DNA from: Cyanobacteriota bacterium
GTDB taxonomy: Bacteria > Acidobacteriota > Vicinamibacteria > Vicinamibacterales > UBA2999
Assembly (NCBI GenBank): GCA_019752015.1
Contig: JAIEMQ010000015.1
Location: 1 to 64,000, forward strand
Reading direction: 5' to 3'
Length of the DNA stretch: 64,000 bases
In this document: in pieces, positions 2,159-23,315 of the stretch
How positions within the stretch are numbered: position 1 is the first letter of the stretch
Layout: every line of letters begins with the position of its first letter
Notes under the pieces: model-generated
Told to the model about the DNA's origin: nothing
Seen by the model: the letters and a program-made list of their open reading frames with translations, nothing else
The model's database searches: none
Made by a program: the position numbers and the translations under genes

Positions 2159-3070
2159 TCACAAAAAGACGACGTCGTCGGCATCGGCATTTGGATCGGC
2201 GCGGCGGAGTCGAGGAAGGCCCTCGACGTTCGGCGTCGACGTCCATGGCGTGATTGCCGTCGCATCACCATCCGGTCGAACCGTGGCGTCCTTCATGGCG
2301 AGTGCAGTTCGCATCACACCGGCGACCGCCGGATCCGCATCGAGCATGACGACAAACAACTTTGTGATTTCTTCCGGATGCCGGGCGCATAGCTGCGCGA
2401 GTCCGTCCCAGCGTTCCGATCTCGATCGCGGTTCGAGCTCGCGGAGCTCCACGTCGAGCACTTTCAAGCGTTCGAGCATGCCGAGGAGGGCTTGCACTTC
2501 GCGCTGGCTAAGGGTGTCGACGCCCTCGTAGAGCTTCATCGCCCGCCGAATGAGTCCGGCGAAGATCTTGCGGATCAACTTCCATCGCATCGAGGCGATG
2601 CCGGCCGCGTGCTCGTCGTCGAGATCGGCGACGGCATCGCGTTCGGTCTCCCGCGTGGAATAGCGCCCGTGCTTCGTCGACAGTTCGTGGCCGAGCCCGG
2701 CGTAGGGATGCTCGTTGGCGCAGCGGCGGTGCGCCTTCTCCGGGTCAGGATGCGGAGGCGCGCCGCACTTACACATCGGGTGCCCGGCTGTACACCGCGA
2801 CGGCTCGGCGGGGTCTCGACCGGCGCCGCAGAGGACGCCTTCGACCTGGAGCCGACAACCCGGTTGCGCGCCTGCCACGGGACCGCCATCAGCGTCGAAG
2901 GCTTCATCGCCCGTCGGATCGATCGCCTCATCGATCGCGCGAATCACAGGCTGCGGAACGGCTCCGTTCGCCTCCGTCGCGTCACCGTGGGCGCGAAACG
3001 GTGTCTCGGTAACTTCGGGGGACTGCGGCGCCACGGCTTTGGAATCGGTTTCGGTCGAGTTACGGTCCAT
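2159..3070 (-). CDS. hypothetical protein with a Cys-rich stretch and a KHGRYS motif
   Basis: A 303-residue product. The N-terminal 60 residues are acidic and probably disordered. A Cys/His-rich segment at about 72-118 (CRLQVEGVLC, CTAGHPMCKCG, CANEH) may bind zinc. It is followed by KHGRYST at about 132-138. Similar HGRYS or HGLYS motifs occur in several phage and mobile-element proteins, including some annotated as small-terminase-like; I do not claim that function here. The rest is helical. It sits between two runs of overlapping genes in the leftward operon. Confidence 0.6.
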   Translation of the reverse strand: MDRNSTETDSKAVAPQSPEVTETPFRAHGDATEANGAVPQPVIRAIDEAIDPTGDEAFDADGGPVAGAQPGCRLQVEGVLCGAGRDPAEPSRCTAGHPMCKCGAPPHPDPEKAHRRCANEHPYAGLGHELSTKHGRYSTRETERDAVADLDDEHAAGIASMRWKLIRKIFAGLIRRAMKLYEGVDTLSQREVQALLGMLERLKVLDVELRELEPRSRSERWDGLAQLCARHPEEITKLFVVMLDADPAVAGVMRTALAMKDATVRPDGDATAITPWTSTPNVEGLPRLRRADPNADADDVVFL

Positions 3071-15692: not shown

Positions 15693-15695
15693 TTC

Positions 15696-15766
15696 AGATC
15701 TCAGATGTCAGATTGCAGATTTAATCTTAGATTGATCTGAGATCTGCAATCTGCAATCTGAGATCT
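15696..15766. repeat. 71-bp palindrome of AGATCTCAGAT/CAGATTGCAGAT words
   Basis: The gap between the aminotransferase and cysS consists of CAGAT words read outward from both ends: AGATCTCAGAT on the left and ATCTGAGATCT on the right. It can fold into one long stem. It lies between the cysS stop (minus strand) and the next gene's start. Confidence 0.7.
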
Positions 15767-19213: not shown

Positions 19214-20017
19214 ATGAGTGAAGACGCAGGAGTCCGCTTTCAGCAGCTCGTCGGGATCATGCGGACCTTGCGCTCGGAGCACGGCTGCGCGTGGGACAAG
19301 CAACAAACACTGCAGACGCTGCGGCCGTTCGTGCTGCAGGAAACATACGAACTGCTCGACGCGCTCGACCGCGGCGATCACGGCGCGCTCGAGCACGAGC
19401 TGGGCGACTTCCTGTTCGAGGCGGTGTTCCTGGCGCAGATTTGCGAGGAAGAAGGACGCTTCTCGATCGCCGACTCGATTCAATCGATCGCCGACAAGTT
19501 GATCCGCCGCCATCCGCACATCTTCGACAAGGACGGCAAGGCGTCTCTGACACCGCAGCAGGTCAAGCAGCAGTGGGAAGAGATCAAGGCGAAGGAACGC
19601 ACGGACGCCGGCGAGCCGGAGAAGACGCTGCTGAGCGGCGTGCCGCGATCGATGCCGTCCTTGCTGCGCGCTTACGAGCTCAGCACGCGCGCGGCGCAGG
19701 TCGGCTTCGATTGGGCGCGTACGGAGGATGTCCTCGACAAGGCGGACGAGGAGATTCGTGAGCTCCGCGACGCCGTGCAGATGATGGGCCACAGGTCGCG
19801 GGAAGCGGAAGAAGAGTTCGGTGATCTGCTCTTCTCGCTGGTCAACGTCGCACGGAAGCTGGGGATCGAGCCGGAGGCGGCGTTGAGAGTGGCGAACGAC
19901 AAGTTCCAACGGCGGTTCGACGACGTCGAACGGCAGGTCGTCGCGAGCGGCCACAGATTCCGAGATCTCACACTGGACCAGCTCGAAGCCTACTGGCAAA
20001 TCGCTAAAGCCAAATAA
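19214..20017 (+). CDS. mazG: nucleoside triphosphate pyrophosphohydrolase
   Basis: A 267-residue MazG with two all-alpha NTP-PPase domains, hydrolysing (d)NTPs to monophosphate and PPi. The first domain carries CAWDKQQTLQTLRPFVLQETYE (26-47) and EHELGDFLFEAVFLAQICEEEGRF with the ExxE/ExxD metal ligands. The second has EEEFGDLLFSLVNVARKLG. KWEE-like QQWEEIKAKER is between them. It is preceded by a -10-like box seven bases before the ATG and has no ribosome site, so a leaderless transcript is possible. Confidence 0.95.
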   Translation: MSEDAGVRFQQLVGIMRTLRSEHGCAWDKQQTLQTLRPFVLQETYELLDALDRGDHGALEHELGDFLFEAVFLAQICEEEGRFSIADSIQSIADKLIRRHPHIFDKDGKASLTPQQVKQQWEEIKAKERTDAGEPEKTLLSGVPRSMPSLLRAYELSTRAAQVGFDWARTEDVLDKADEEIRELRDAVQMMGHRSREAEEEFGDLLFSLVNVARKLGIEPEAALRVANDKFQRRFDDVERQVVASGHRFRDLTLDQLEAYWQIAKAK

Positions 20018-20123
20018 CACGAAGGACACGAAGGACACGAAGGCTTCTTTTCAAAATGCCAGTGCCGCTCAGCAGTACTGGCTTTAGAAAAGTCGTCTTC
20101 GTGTCCTTCGTGTTCTTCGTGTT
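20016..20123. repeat. 108-bp palindromic element with ACGAAGRAC-array termini
   Basis: The left arm (20016-20052) is an array of ACACGAAGG words ending CTTTTC. The right arm (20087-20123) is its reverse complement with 33 of 37 positions matching. The 34-base centre carries a further inverted pair, GCCAGT and ACTGGC. The termini match those of the GxxExxY-bearing unit at 22637-23310, so this looks like a gene-less relative. It begins at the mazG stop. Confidence 0.8.
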
Positions 20124-20239
20124 GAAGTTTTTGACATGCCTGCGCCTTGCGGCCGTCGCAGAAATTGCGGCGCGATCGACGCGTTTCGCCGGAATTCCTC
20201 GAAGATCGCCATGCCCCGCCGTTTGCTTCTGGCCGTGGC

Positions 20240-22735
20240 ATGTTCACATCAGTCATCCTCGCAGTCGCTGTCACTGCCGGCATTGCCGCCGGCGTCTTCA
20301 TCAATCCTGAGTCGCTCGGTCCGGTCAGGTGGGCCGCTGCCACGTTTGGTCTACTCGCCTTCGTCGCGGGCGCGCGTCAAATGTTCTCGTCCGCAAAAGT
20401 CTGCATCGGAGGGGCGTTTGGCTTCGCGTGCGTGTTGCTGGGCGCCGGCGCGCAGGATCGCGCGCTGCACCCGCCGCTTCGCCAGCTGCTCGAAGACCGC
20501 CTCGGCGGCTTCGCGATCGAAGGCGTCGACGCGAAACGGCACGACGATCCGGTGGAGATCGAAGGATGGTTACTGGCGGACGCCACGGCGACCGACTCAG
20601 GTGCCACGCTCCGCGTGCAGGTTGAACGAGCATCCGTTGGATCGTGTCCGGAACTCGCCCGCGGCGGCGTCTCGCTCTCCGTGCAAGGCATCCTCGCCGC
20701 CGGTGCCATCGATCAATGGCGCGCGGGCCGCTCGATACGTGCCACCGCGACGCTGCGGCGACCGGCGCGGTATCTGAACGACGGCGCCCCCGACTTCGAG
20801 CGGATGATGGCGAGGCGGGGGCTGTCACTCGTCGGGACCGTGAAGAGCGCGGCGCTGGTGCGCATCATCGACCAAGGGACGCTGCTCGACGAGACCGCCG
20901 CATCGATTCGGGCCGGCGTCAGGGACGCGATCAACCGCCACGTCGGGCAACGCGACCCTCAATCGGCGGCCATCGCGATTGCGATTCTGATCGGTGACCG
21001 CGGCTCGCTCGACCCTCTCGTCGAGCAGCGGCTGCAGGAAGCCGGCACCTACCACGTCATTGCGATCTCCGGCGGCAACATCGCCATCCTCGCCGGGATT
21101 GTCCTGGCGCTTTTGTGGGCGCTCAACATTCGCGGCGGATGGGCGTCGAGCGCGGCGATCGTCCTCCTCGCGGCATATGCCTTCATCGCCGGCGGCGGGC
21201 CGTCGGTGATCCGCGCCACGCTCATGGCGTGCATCTACCTTGGGCTGCGGATCATCGATCAACGGACGGCGGCTCTGCACGCGATCGCGTTGACGATCGT
21301 CGCCGTGTTGATCGCCTCGCCATTGTCGATTGCCGACGTCGGCCTGTGGCTCACCTTCGGCGCCTCGGCGGCGATCGTGGCCGGCGCCGCGATGGTGACG
21401 CTGCCGCAACAGTGGTGGCTGCGCGGTGCCGCGGCCGTGATGCTGGCATCGCTGTCGGCTGAACTGGTTTTGCTCCCGGTGGTCACGTTCGTGTTCCAGC
21501 GCGTCACCATCGCGGGTCTTGCCGTCAACGTCGTCGCGATTCCCTGCATGGCCGTCGTCCAGGTTGCGGCAATGGTGACATCAGCCACCCACGCCGCTGG
21601 TCTACGCACGGTCGCAGATATTTCCGGATGGTTCACACATGCCGGCGTCGTTGGACTACTGGAGAGCGCGCGCCTGGTTGACGCAGCCCCCTGGCTCACC
21701 TGGCGAGTCCCGTCACCGCATACGTTGGTGATCGTTGCGTATTACGTGTGCGTGGTCGCGGCCATGCTGATGATCAAATGGCGGCGCCCGGCCGCACTCG
21801 CGGCAGGGTTGCTGTTCTGGATCATCGCCGCGCCCCAGACCTGGGCCCGCACTTTCGGTGACGGCCAACTGCATCTCACGGTCATGGACGTTGGCCAGGG
21901 CGACGCCATGCTCGCCACGCTACCCAACGGACGCACTTTGATGATCGATACCGGCGGCGTCTCACTGCGCGGCGACTTCGATATTGGCGACCGTGTGCTC
22001 GGTCCGGCATTGCGGGCGCGCGGCATCCGCCGGCTCGACTACGTCGCGATCACGCACGGCGATCCCGACCACATCGGCGGCGCCGTTTCACTGGTCCGCG
22101 ACTTCGCACCGTCGGAGATCTGGTATGGCACCTTCGTGAACGAACACGAGCCGACCATCAAGCTCCAGGAAATCGCCCGGCGCCGCCGATCGGCGTGGCG
22201 GTGGCTGCAGAAAGGCGACCAGATCGATCTCGGTGGCGTCGAGCTCCGCGTCCATCATCCATCGCCACCCGACTGGCAACGGCAACAAGTGCGCAACGAC
22301 GATTCGCTGGTGCTTGAACTGCGCTACGGCCGCGTGTCGATGTTGCTCACTGGCGACATCGGCAAGGACGTCGAACGGGCGCTCATCCCGACGCTCGATC
22401 TCTTACCGATCGTCGTGCTGAAGTCGGCCCATCATGGCAGCGGGACGTCGAGCTCTGACGAGTTCATCCAGGCCATCAAGCCCAAGCTGGTGCTGATCAG
22501 CAACGGCCGCGCCAATCCGTACGGGCATCCGGTGCCGATCGTGCTCGAAAGATACCGGGCGATCGGTGCTGACGTTGCCCGGACAGATCTGGACGGACAG
22601 CTGGAAGCAACGACCGACGGCCTCACGCTGTTCTTAAACACGAAGAACACGAAGAGCACGAAGACCATATATTCGGGTTCTATCGCGCGACCCCGAATCT
22701 ATCCCGTCCCTCAGGTGGTGCGAAATGCTTACTAG
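20240..22735 (+). CDS. comEC: ComEC/Rec2 DNA-uptake channel protein
   Basis: An 831-residue inner-membrane competence protein that would pass single-stranded DNA into the cytoplasm. Hydrophobic segments begin at the N-terminus. The Competence domain starts near SAAIAIAILIGDRGSLDPLVEQRLQEAGTYHVIAISGGN and has many membrane helices. The C-terminal MBL-like domain has VMDVGQGDAMLATLPNGRTLMIDTGG and ITHGDPDHIGG, and KSAHHGSGTS. The ATG at 20240 was chosen; the frame is open to 20147. The last 30 or so residues (NTKNTKSTK and onward) are encoded by an inserted repeat, so the native C-terminus probably ended near LTLFL. Confidence 0.9.
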   Translation: MFTSVILAVAVTAGIAAGVFINPESLGPVRWAAATFGLLAFVAGARQMFSSAKVCIGGAFGFACVLLGAGAQDRALHPPLRQLLEDRLGGFAIEGVDAKRHDDPVEIEGWLLADATATDSGATLRVQVERASVGSCPELARGGVSLSVQGILAAGAIDQWRAGRSIRATATLRRPARYLNDGAPDFERMMARRGLSLVGTVKSAALVRIIDQGTLLDETAASIRAGVRDAINRHVGQRDPQSAAIAIAILIGDRGSLDPLVEQRLQEAGTYHVIAISGGNIAILAGIVLALLWALNIRGGWASSAAIVLLAAYAFIAGGGPSVIRATLMACIYLGLRIIDQRTAALHAIALTIVAVLIASPLSIADVGLWLTFGASAAIVAGAAMVTLPQQWWLRGAAAVMLASLSAELVLLPVVTFVFQRVTIAGLAVNVVAIPCMAVVQVAAMVTSATHAAGLRTVADISGWFTHAGVVGLLESARLVDAAPWLTWRVPSPHTLVIVAYYVCVVAAMLMIKWRRPAALAAGLLFWIIAAPQTWARTFGDGQLHLTVMDVGQGDAMLATLPNGRTLMIDTGGVSLRGDFDIGDRVLGPALRARGIRRLDYVAITHGDPDHIGGAVSLVRDFAPSEIWYGTFVNEHEPTIKLQEIARRRRSAWRWLQKGDQIDLGGVELRVHHPSPPDWQRQQVRNDDSLVLELRYGRVSMLLTGDIGKDVERALIPTLDLLPIVVLKSAHHGSGTSSSDEFIQAIKPKLVLISNGRANPYGHPVPIVLERYRAIGADVARTDLDGQLEATTDGLTLFLNTKNTKSTKTIYSGSIARPRIYPVPQVVRNAY

Positions 22736-23123
22736 GGTGTCCAGCACACTGCCACCGGAAACGGACGAAGTCATGTTCAGAGTACTGGGCGCAGCCATCG
22801 AGGTCCACCGCCACCTGGGCCCGGGCTTTCTTGAATCGATCTACCAGCGGGCGATGTGCGTCGAGCTGGGTGAGCGCGGCATCAGCTACGAAAAGAAGAA
22901 AAGAATCGCCGTCGTCTACAAAGGACACCAGCTCCATGGACAGGAGCTGGACCTCATCGTCGAATCAGTGGTCGTAGTCGAAGTGAAGGCGGTTTCGCAG
23001 CTCGAAGAGATTCATGCCAGCCAAATCGTGTCGTACTTAAAGGCAACCGGCCTTCGCGCGGGCTTGCTCATTAACTTCAACAAACCGGTATTGAAGGCTG
23101 GCATTCGCCGAATCGTGCTTTGA
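22725..23123 (+). CDS. GxxExxY family protein with PD-(D/E)XK active site
   Basis: A 132-residue protein with the name-giving motif at Gly34-Glu37-Tyr40 (GPGFLESIYQRAM). A complete PD-(D/E)XK-type site is visible: Asp76 (ELDLIV), Glu86 and Lys88 (VVVEVKA), and a QxxxY helix at Gln100-Tyr104 (SQIVSYL), as in RecB-like nucleases. The biochemical activity of the family is, to my knowledge, not established. The comEC read-through frame overlaps its first bases. It is enclosed by inverted repeat arrays and followed by a long palindrome, which could be its substrate or regulator; that is inference. Confidence 0.85.
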   Translation: MLTRVSSTLPPETDEVMFRVLGAAIEVHRHLGPGFLESIYQRAMCVELGERGISYEKKKRIAVVYKGHQLHGQELDLIVESVVVVEVKAVSQLEEIHASQIVSYLKATGLRAGLLINFNKPVLKAGIRRIVL

Positions 23124-23144
23124 CAGCGACTCGGCAGACACAAA

Positions 23145-23283
23145 GCGTTGCTCGCGGCGGCGCGAAGCGCCGCGTCAGCAGCGAAGGACCGCCGAAATGA
23201 GTGGGCAAGGATCGTTAACACTCATTTCTGCGGTCCTTCGTTGCCGACGTGAAGCCGGCCTTCGGCCGGCCCGCGAGCAACGC
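23145..23283. repeat. 139-bp nested palindrome downstream of the GxxExxY gene
   Basis: The outer arms are GCGTTGCTCGCGG (23145-23157) and CCGCGAGCAACGC (23271-23283), perfectly inverted. The inner arms are 23182-23203 and 23219-23240, 22 bases with one mismatch, reading CGAAGGACCG...AATGAGTG and back. The loop is 15 bases. GC-rich mini-hairpins (GCGCGAAGCGC and GGCCGGCCTTCGGCCGG-like) sit on the shoulders. Confidence 0.85.
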
Positions 23284-23315
23284 CTTCGTGCCCTTCGTGT
23301 CCTTCGTGTTTGCCT

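Follow-up and report, generated by a model that had tools for sequence, protein, structure and literature searches.

A palindrome of 108 bp that contains no gene lies between mazG (PF03819) and comEC (PF03772) at positions 20016-20123 of a 64,000-nucleotide stretch of an Acidobacteriota genome (hereafter, the window; contig JAIEMQ010000015.1 of assembly GCA_019752015.1), and raises the question of what kind of element it is and what brought it there. An earlier note, made from the sequence alone, took it for a nonautonomous derivative of a nearby 674-bp GxxExxY unit (22637-23310), resembling a miniature inverted-repeat transposable element (MITE) or a repetitive extragenic palindromic (REP) element. 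The explanation that is moderately favoured here is that the palindrome, itself without a gene, belongs to a repeat family whose autonomous form would be a GxxExxY gene between facing arms that are usually triple, and is spread in trans by the GxxExxY nuclease. Membership of the palindrome, as an ordinary representative of this unusual family, is highly likely and well supported; mobilisation by GxxExxY itself is a plausible but tentative proposal.

The palindrome and its relatives in the source genome

Direct reading bears out the anatomy described in the earlier note. The outer 37 bases on each side match at 33 positions and enclose 34 bases that hold an inverted pair of their own (20058-20082); a repeat finder extends the arms to 41 nt (20016-20056 and 20083-20123, 88% complementary). 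The left arm (20016-20042, + strand) consists of the three 9-bp units AACACGAAG, GACACGAAG and GACACGAAG, the right arm (20097-20123, - strand) is the inverse triple array CTTCGTGTC CTTCGTGTT CTTCGTGTT, and the interior (20043-20096), delimited by sequence and fold, comprises CTTTTC-like and GAAAAG shoulders around the core hairpin GCCAGTGCCGCTCAGCAGTACTGGC. The open reading frames (ORFs) that cross the element are mechanical only, and the TAA stop (20015-20017) of mazG (19214-20017, + strand, with matches in seven congeners) shares its last two bases with the beginning of the left arm. An Rfam search of the palindrome gave matches below the gathering score only (mir-787, 30.2 bits against a cut-off of 57; mir-425, 18.3 bits against 60). 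The unit AACACGAAG is present six times in the window, against 0.36 expected, a count reached in 0 of 100 shuffles; three copies lie in the palindrome and three at the ends of the 674-bp unit, which confirms that the two elements have the same ends.

The arm is not unique to this site. In the whole assembly (G000; 5,917,992 bases on 82 contigs), a two-unit arm pattern allowing up to 2 mismatches gave 108 matches, against 36 for the reversed pattern, and an exact three-unit pattern gave 31 against 0. The copies do occur as inverted pairs: sixteen gene-less sites, the palindrome included, carry paired inverted CACGAAG arms, two more have one degenerate arm each (L039 and L045), and six have a single clear arm (L040, L046, L047, L051, L053 and L054). 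Arms are generally built of three 9-bp units, and three-unit arms are usual at the paired sites. The only gene-bearing CACGAAG copy in the genome is the GxxExxY unit of the window, 2.5 kb from the palindrome. Arms thus stand at scattered places in the genome, mostly in inverted pairs, and like arms bracket GxxExxY genes across phyla.

Eleven copies of about 95-110 bp, each at a different locus, form a subfamily with common shoulders and the core CCAGTGCYGCTNAGCRGCACTGG, which is partly deleted in L049 and present in the other ten; their pairwise identity is 0.72-0.87 (median 0.80). A second gene-less class of 206-218 bp (L038, L052, L057 and the similar L039) consists of long nested palindromes, centred on AAAATGAGT in three members. 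Similar blocks also adjoin the GxxExxY gene of the window, where a nested palindrome block (AAATGAGT...ACTCATTT, 23140-23282) lies between the gene and the right arm. The interiors of L038, L039 and L057 exceeded all 200 shuffles when compared with this block and with the left block of L097, and that of L052 did not; fewer interiors exceeded shuffles against the right block of L097 and the block of L060. A derivation of the 206-218-bp class from GxxExxY units is only suggestive on this sequence evidence, and the match is partly that of a G+C-rich hairpin. The interior of the 108-bp palindrome matched none of the four GxxExxY-type unit blocks compared by way of this class.

The gene-bearing unit itself has a left arm (22637-22663, + strand), the GxxExxY gene (22725-23123, + strand), the nested block and a right arm (23284-23310, - strand). 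Its protein is assigned to the GxxExxY family by TIGR04256 (139.6 bits) and by PF13366 PDDEXK_3 (141 bits), and has the conserved residues E, D, ExK and QxxxY. A structure model (predicted local distance difference test 88.6) has as its best Protein Data Bank (PDB) match in VIA-align the Cas4 protein SSO0001 (Z 9.8, root mean square deviation 3.1 over 98 residues); residues and model agree with a Cas4/lambda-exonuclease-like PD-(D/E)XK nuclease. The comEC-like ORF (20147-22735, + strand; PF03772 and PF00753) enters the left arm at its 3' end, and its frame continues through the arm at 22620-22735 (LNTKNTKSTK...); the element therefore supplies the C-terminus of the ComEC protein. Within ORFs, the repeats translate as NTKNTKSTK- or FVSFVLF-like stretches. 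At L046, a single arm (3009-3053) lies at the start of a 924-aa ORF and may have become part of the coding sequence.

Arms around GxxExxY genes and around a second protein family

The association of such arms with GxxExxY genes extends well beyond the window. In nine congeneric genomes, inverted flanks scored above all 30 shuffles at 22 of 26 GxxExxY loci, a count that leaves out four loci cut by contig ends (L101, L110, L114 and L116). Most of these arms are made of three short units, and the unit varies by element (CACGAAGNN, CACGGAGA, CACAGATTA, CACAGAGA, CAGGAGAT and others); among the 22 loci, the aligned part of L061 and L107 holds two units only, and the units of L063 are irregular. One GxxExxY unit, L062 (1244-1943), has two nested kinds of arm, CACAGATTA outside and GGTTCTC-like inside.

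A wider set was made of the best 80 of 195 confirmed GxxExxY loci, drawn with one peptide pattern that favours one subfamily; at most 79 of them are independent, L149 and L151 being identical over all 5360 bp and probably one locus taken twice. The record titles name Acidobacteriota, Planctomycetota, Chloroflexota, Verrucomicrobiota, Proteobacteria and others. An inverted-flank score of at least 34 was found at 62 of 75 loci, against 1 of 65 same-locus controls and 7 of 78 mismatched controls, and three CAC..A units faced inward on both sides at 53 of 80 loci, against 4 of 80 in the reverse arrangement and 1 of 66 control regions. Odd units and spacings of one arm often reappear in the partner arm of the same element. 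Among the 50 loci compared, the other 30 having been dropped for want of regular 7-base units on both sides, arms differ by 0.94 mismatches per 21 positions within an element and by 3.7 between elements. A GxxExxY-bracketing inverted-triplet element is defined here by two facing arms of three CAC-NN-AG units with a period of 8-11 bp and a GxxExxY gene between them; the palindrome has such arms but lacks the gene, and is a gene-less relative of these elements.

Array and gene also occur together at the level of genomes. Among 396 genomes of the phylum, an exact period-9 array was detected in 84 and a GxxExxY gene in 138; 71 genomes combine the two, 13 have the array alone, 67 the gene alone, and 245 neither (odds ratio 20, p 1.7e-26, uncorrected for descent). 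By genus, assigned by hand, the gene is present in 43 of 50 genera with the array and in 36 of 160 others. At least five arrays were found in 43 genomes, and 38 of these have the gene.

A second, unrelated protein family shows the same architecture. Genes for a four-helix bundle (TIGR02436) gave 72 listed matches in the nine genomes, 12 of them in the source genome; three of the proteins were tested and correspond to the 23S rRNA intervening sequence (IVS) protein PF05635, two with a weak match to bAvd. Thirty loci were fetched (L265-L294), 26 of which were long enough for comparison, and an inverted-flank score of at least 34 was found at 18 of these 26, against 1 of 26 controls. The flanks are mostly tandem arrays, with units GATCCGGG, CAGTAGCC, AAGGCAGA and others, and often more than three units per arm.

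Orthologous sites, inversion and nesting

The orthologous end of mazG was compared in seven congeners (G001-G007), remnants of arms being judged by eye. In G007, a complete GxxExxY unit stands a few bases at most from the place of the palindrome; G001 carries a unit slightly downstream, with a shortened gene (match 3-44 of 116); G003 has a gene-less palindrome of 48 bp; G002, G005 and G006 retain remnants of one arm; and G004 has no element. Gene-less and gene-bearing forms therefore share one orthologous place in different species. The GxxExxY genes of the window, G007 and G001 are probably orthologous, given that their predicted proteins have the N-terminus MLTR... in common.

In all seven congeners, comEC lies on the strand opposite to mazG and converges with it, and in five of the seven carB lies within the compared stretch on the comEC strand. 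The segment 20016-23310 of the window, comprising comEC and the GxxExxY unit, is inverted relative to this arrangement, and its ends are the 108-bp palindrome and the GxxExxY unit. Recombination between the arms of the two elements would explain the inversion.

The flanks of ten elements were searched in congeners, where they are about 71-93% identical, and 30 orthologous junctions of seven elements were read. Strong hairpins (z at most -4) occur at 18 of the 30 junctions, against 0 of 28 flank controls (two of the 30 controls were too short to compute); a count by eye gave about 20 of 30. By eye, eight of the palindromes resemble the CACGAAG type and roughly a dozen belong to others (CAGGAG, CACAGAG, GGTGCC, GTGCGTAC, GATCCGGG and AAGGCAGA). 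Two of the types that stand where CACGAAG palindromes are found in G000, GATCCGGG and AAGGCAGA, are also arm types of the TIGR02436 loci. At site E2, G004 carries the same core in the same position, which marks this copy as common to G000 and G004 by descent. The search for empty sites, which was made in congeners rather than in strains of the same species, found G004 empty at E4, E5 and E6 as well as at the mazG site, a comparison compatible with either state being the older.

Two further observations concern the succession of elements at a site. In a pair of Chloroflexota loci with flanks 89-91% identical, L194 retains part of an older left arm of the CACAAAG type; next to it begins a new element bounded by CACCGAG arms, whose protein is only 53% identical and has one internal stop. 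In genome G376, outer arm units stand on both sides of 11 of 15 sites, against 0 of 16 sites in G000; the 15 sites are those fetched out of 52 array matches, and in one of them, L359, the two arrays share a strand. The nesting, and likewise the switch of unit type at fixed sites, would follow if new elements inserted into resident palindromes. The G376 sites (L356-L370) show concentric nested arms in a genome with no detected GxxExxY gene.

The candidate nuclease and its rivals

These observations are consistent with the following mechanism. A reaction initiated at the arms, either copying or insertion, would spread the copies, and the arms of gene-less copies would probably be cut in trans by the GxxExxY PD-(D/E)XK nuclease. 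New copies would land at the 3' ends of genes and inside resident palindromes, where a longer hairpin may be tolerated; landing in palindromes would yield nested copies and the replacement of one unit type by another, and recombination between arms would invert the DNA between two copies, as with comEC here. On this view the palindrome is a REP/MITE-like non-autonomous element, probably spread in trans by a GxxExxY nuclease with a predicted Cas4-like fold. If GxxExxY spreads or maintains the palindromes, this would account at once for the function of a nuclease family that 138 of the 396 genomes possess and for the origin of a widespread intergenic repeat; a type of repeat scattered among bacteria may thus have been matched with its enzyme.

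Several results weigh against a role of GxxExxY in spreading the palindromes. No insertion or excision event was observed among the sites compared, and inspection of E4, E5 and E6 by eye against the empty sites of G004 showed no target-site duplication; the flanks there are 74-93% identical, and a short duplication could have decayed. Six of the seven GxxExxY genes of the source genome carry arms of other unit types, that of the window being the only one with CACGAAG arms. Five of the 43 array-rich genomes have no GxxExxY gene: G125 and G134, with assemblies 86% and 64% complete, and G334, G358 and G376, which gave no match to TIGR04256 or PF13366, although the array pattern matches 52 times in G376, often within short paired palindromes. 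In such genomes the gene may have been lost, be absent from the assembly, or be unneeded. As to the fold, the best Foldseek match has E 0.0095, Z values of 7 to 8 are a common best value for models without relatives, and a PDB sequence search with the GxxExxY profile gave nothing under E 0.8.

Arm type follows protein type with a Mantel r of 0.16 (p 0.005), falling to 0.02 (p 0.33) below 60% identity; the nearest neighbour has the same arm type in 33 of 50 cases, against 11.3 expected, and in 15 of 50 (p 0.15) once the choice is restricted to neighbours below 60% identity. Many elements are inherited together with their flanks. Tight co-evolution of arm and protein was accordingly set aside as a proof, being visible only among nearer relatives, many with flanks common by descent. 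GxxExxY genes were found in 7 of 72,556 plasmids and in none of the phage records (both at E 1e-5), and 107 stretches matching the pattern in viral contigs included no relative. To judge by the plasmid and phage searches, the gene resides mainly in chromosomes, a habit that, by analogy, would fit the slow life of REP-associated tyrosine transposases (RAYTs) better than that of an insertion sequence.

The foremost rival, which is improbable, holds that the palindrome is a host element, a transcription end or an mRNA-protecting hairpin at gene 3' ends that is kept by selection on the RNA fold, with the GxxExxY gene an occasional passenger. The fold is indeed very strong (z = -15.2 for the + strand as RNA; -11.5 for the - strand as DNA), five T start four bases past the palindrome, and TTTT lies within 15 nt of an end in 8 of 16 paired copies, a figure given without a control. 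A scan for terminators, however, found none here (0.8 expected), under a rule that allows loops of 3-8 only, and a terminator needs no fixed arm sequence common to one gene family across phyla. Placement near gene ends also accords with a host hairpin: 11 of 25 sites have a stop codon at most 3 bp from the element, and convergent genes enclose 9 of 25, against 4 of 44 window junctions. These orientation counts used codon scoring and are crude; on the mazG side of the palindrome an antisense ORF was picked, and the ORF reading was used there instead. Selection for tolerated sites would give the same placement at stops and convergent junctions. The persistence of sites across species favours a host function, but G004 lacks the element at E4, E5 and E6. 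Covariation among 12 copies gave no clear signal. One of five measures leans towards the fold, pairs changed on both sides numbering 10 where shuffles give 6.4 (14 of 500 reach that value); the other four do not exceed shuffled columns (paired cells amount to 87.2%, against 86.6% in shuffles, and 102 of 500 shuffles are at least as high). On this basis, selection on the RNA fold was set aside.

A reading with still lower probability dispenses with any enzyme, the palindromes being born and homogenised by replication slippage, template switching and occasional copying by recombination. Slippage and hairpin-templated correction would keep tandem units and matched arms in step, and arm growth by slippage could mimic the nesting of G376, of which it is an admissible alternative source. 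Against this, one subfamily at eleven loci needs copying between loci, and neither the regular three-unit size of the arms nor the link to two protein families is accounted for.

Least probable of all, and disfavoured, is a REP-like element spread by a Y1 (RAYT) transposase of the same genome: the anatomy of a dispersed intergenic hairpin with a presumed trans-acting partner resembles REP/RAYT systems and G000 has 13 PF01797 matches, but none of the 12 loci fetched, which cover all 13 matches, carries the CACGAAG triple or the core. Ten of these twelve Y1-transposase loci (L331-L342) have other inverted flank repeats (score at least 40, with no control run) and form a separate REP/RAYT-like population.

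Preference for the GxxExxY-associated family leaves the likeness proposed in the earlier note partly standing. A dispersed gene-less family with the ends of the GxxExxY unit, and a full unit (G007) or a 48-bp palindrome (G003) at the orthologous place, agree with a nonautonomous MITE- or REP-like element; the absence of a target-site duplication at three empty sites, the lack of a RAYT link (0 of 12) and an interior unlike the GxxExxY-type blocks do not. REP sequences and the bacterial interspersed mosaic elements (BIMEs) that they form are short, dispersed intergenic hairpins, mostly gene-less, with a presumed trans-acting partner gene, the RAYT, in the chromosome. The palindromes studied here are likewise dispersed, gene-less and intergenic, with a chromosomal partner gene in similar surroundings, but the partner belongs to a PD-(D/E)XK nuclease family rather than to the Y1 transposases, the ends are tandem units, and the RAYT-type loci of the source genome carry other repeats. 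Like MITEs, they are gene-less and dispersed, and their inverted ends resemble those of a gene-bearing unit of the source genome. They differ from MITEs in showing no target duplication and, for the 108-bp copy, in an interior that belongs to a subfamily of its own; in place of an autonomous element that encodes a known transposase stands GxxExxY, a predicted member of the PD-(D/E)XK nucleases. The palindromic elements of Rickettsia are also dispersed and readable as protein; to our knowledge, they have neither three-unit arms nor a nuclease partner.

Two published systems come closer in part. In Geobacter metallireducens, pairs of sites whose three or four tandem repeats lie on opposing strands have been termed 'global regulator binding sites', with putative IHF/HU binding (PMC2700814). 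The reverse complement of that repeat fits the CACGGAGA arms of L058; the accessible part of the paper proposes binding by IHF/HU and makes no link to GxxExxY. The 23S rRNA IVS of Coxiella is reported to have replaced small helix loops (PMC4990558), and resembles the present elements, as far as the available text describes it, in having stem-forming inverted ends around a small S23p ORF in place of a hairpin loop. PF05635 genes lie between inverted repeats in the source genus too. The IVS differs in lying in rRNA with another protein, whereas the palindrome is gene-less, lies between mazG and comEC and has no S23p-type ORF. No paper joining GxxExxY to such arms was found in a literature search mostly without subscription journals and without bioRxiv preprints, which is no proof of novelty, and no function of GxxExxY was found in the accessible print sources, in one of which the name appears as an incidental annotation.

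The same architecture around the 23S-IVS protein family would tie IVS elements to the GxxExxY-type palindromes. A broader reading, which is doubtful at present, is that the three-unit palindromes of many phyla constitute one undescribed class of spreading DNA with short tandem-array ends, serviced in trans by either the GxxExxY nuclease or the unrelated 23S-IVS/bAvd-like four-helix bundle, and inserting into existing hairpins such that a site keeps a palindrome over long periods while its type is repeatedly overwritten. The window holds another palindrome of tandem units at 15694-15760, with 7-bp units (TCAGATN...ATCTGCA); a generic detector found three such tandem-unit palindrome pairs in the window, this one among them, and 0 in three shuffles.
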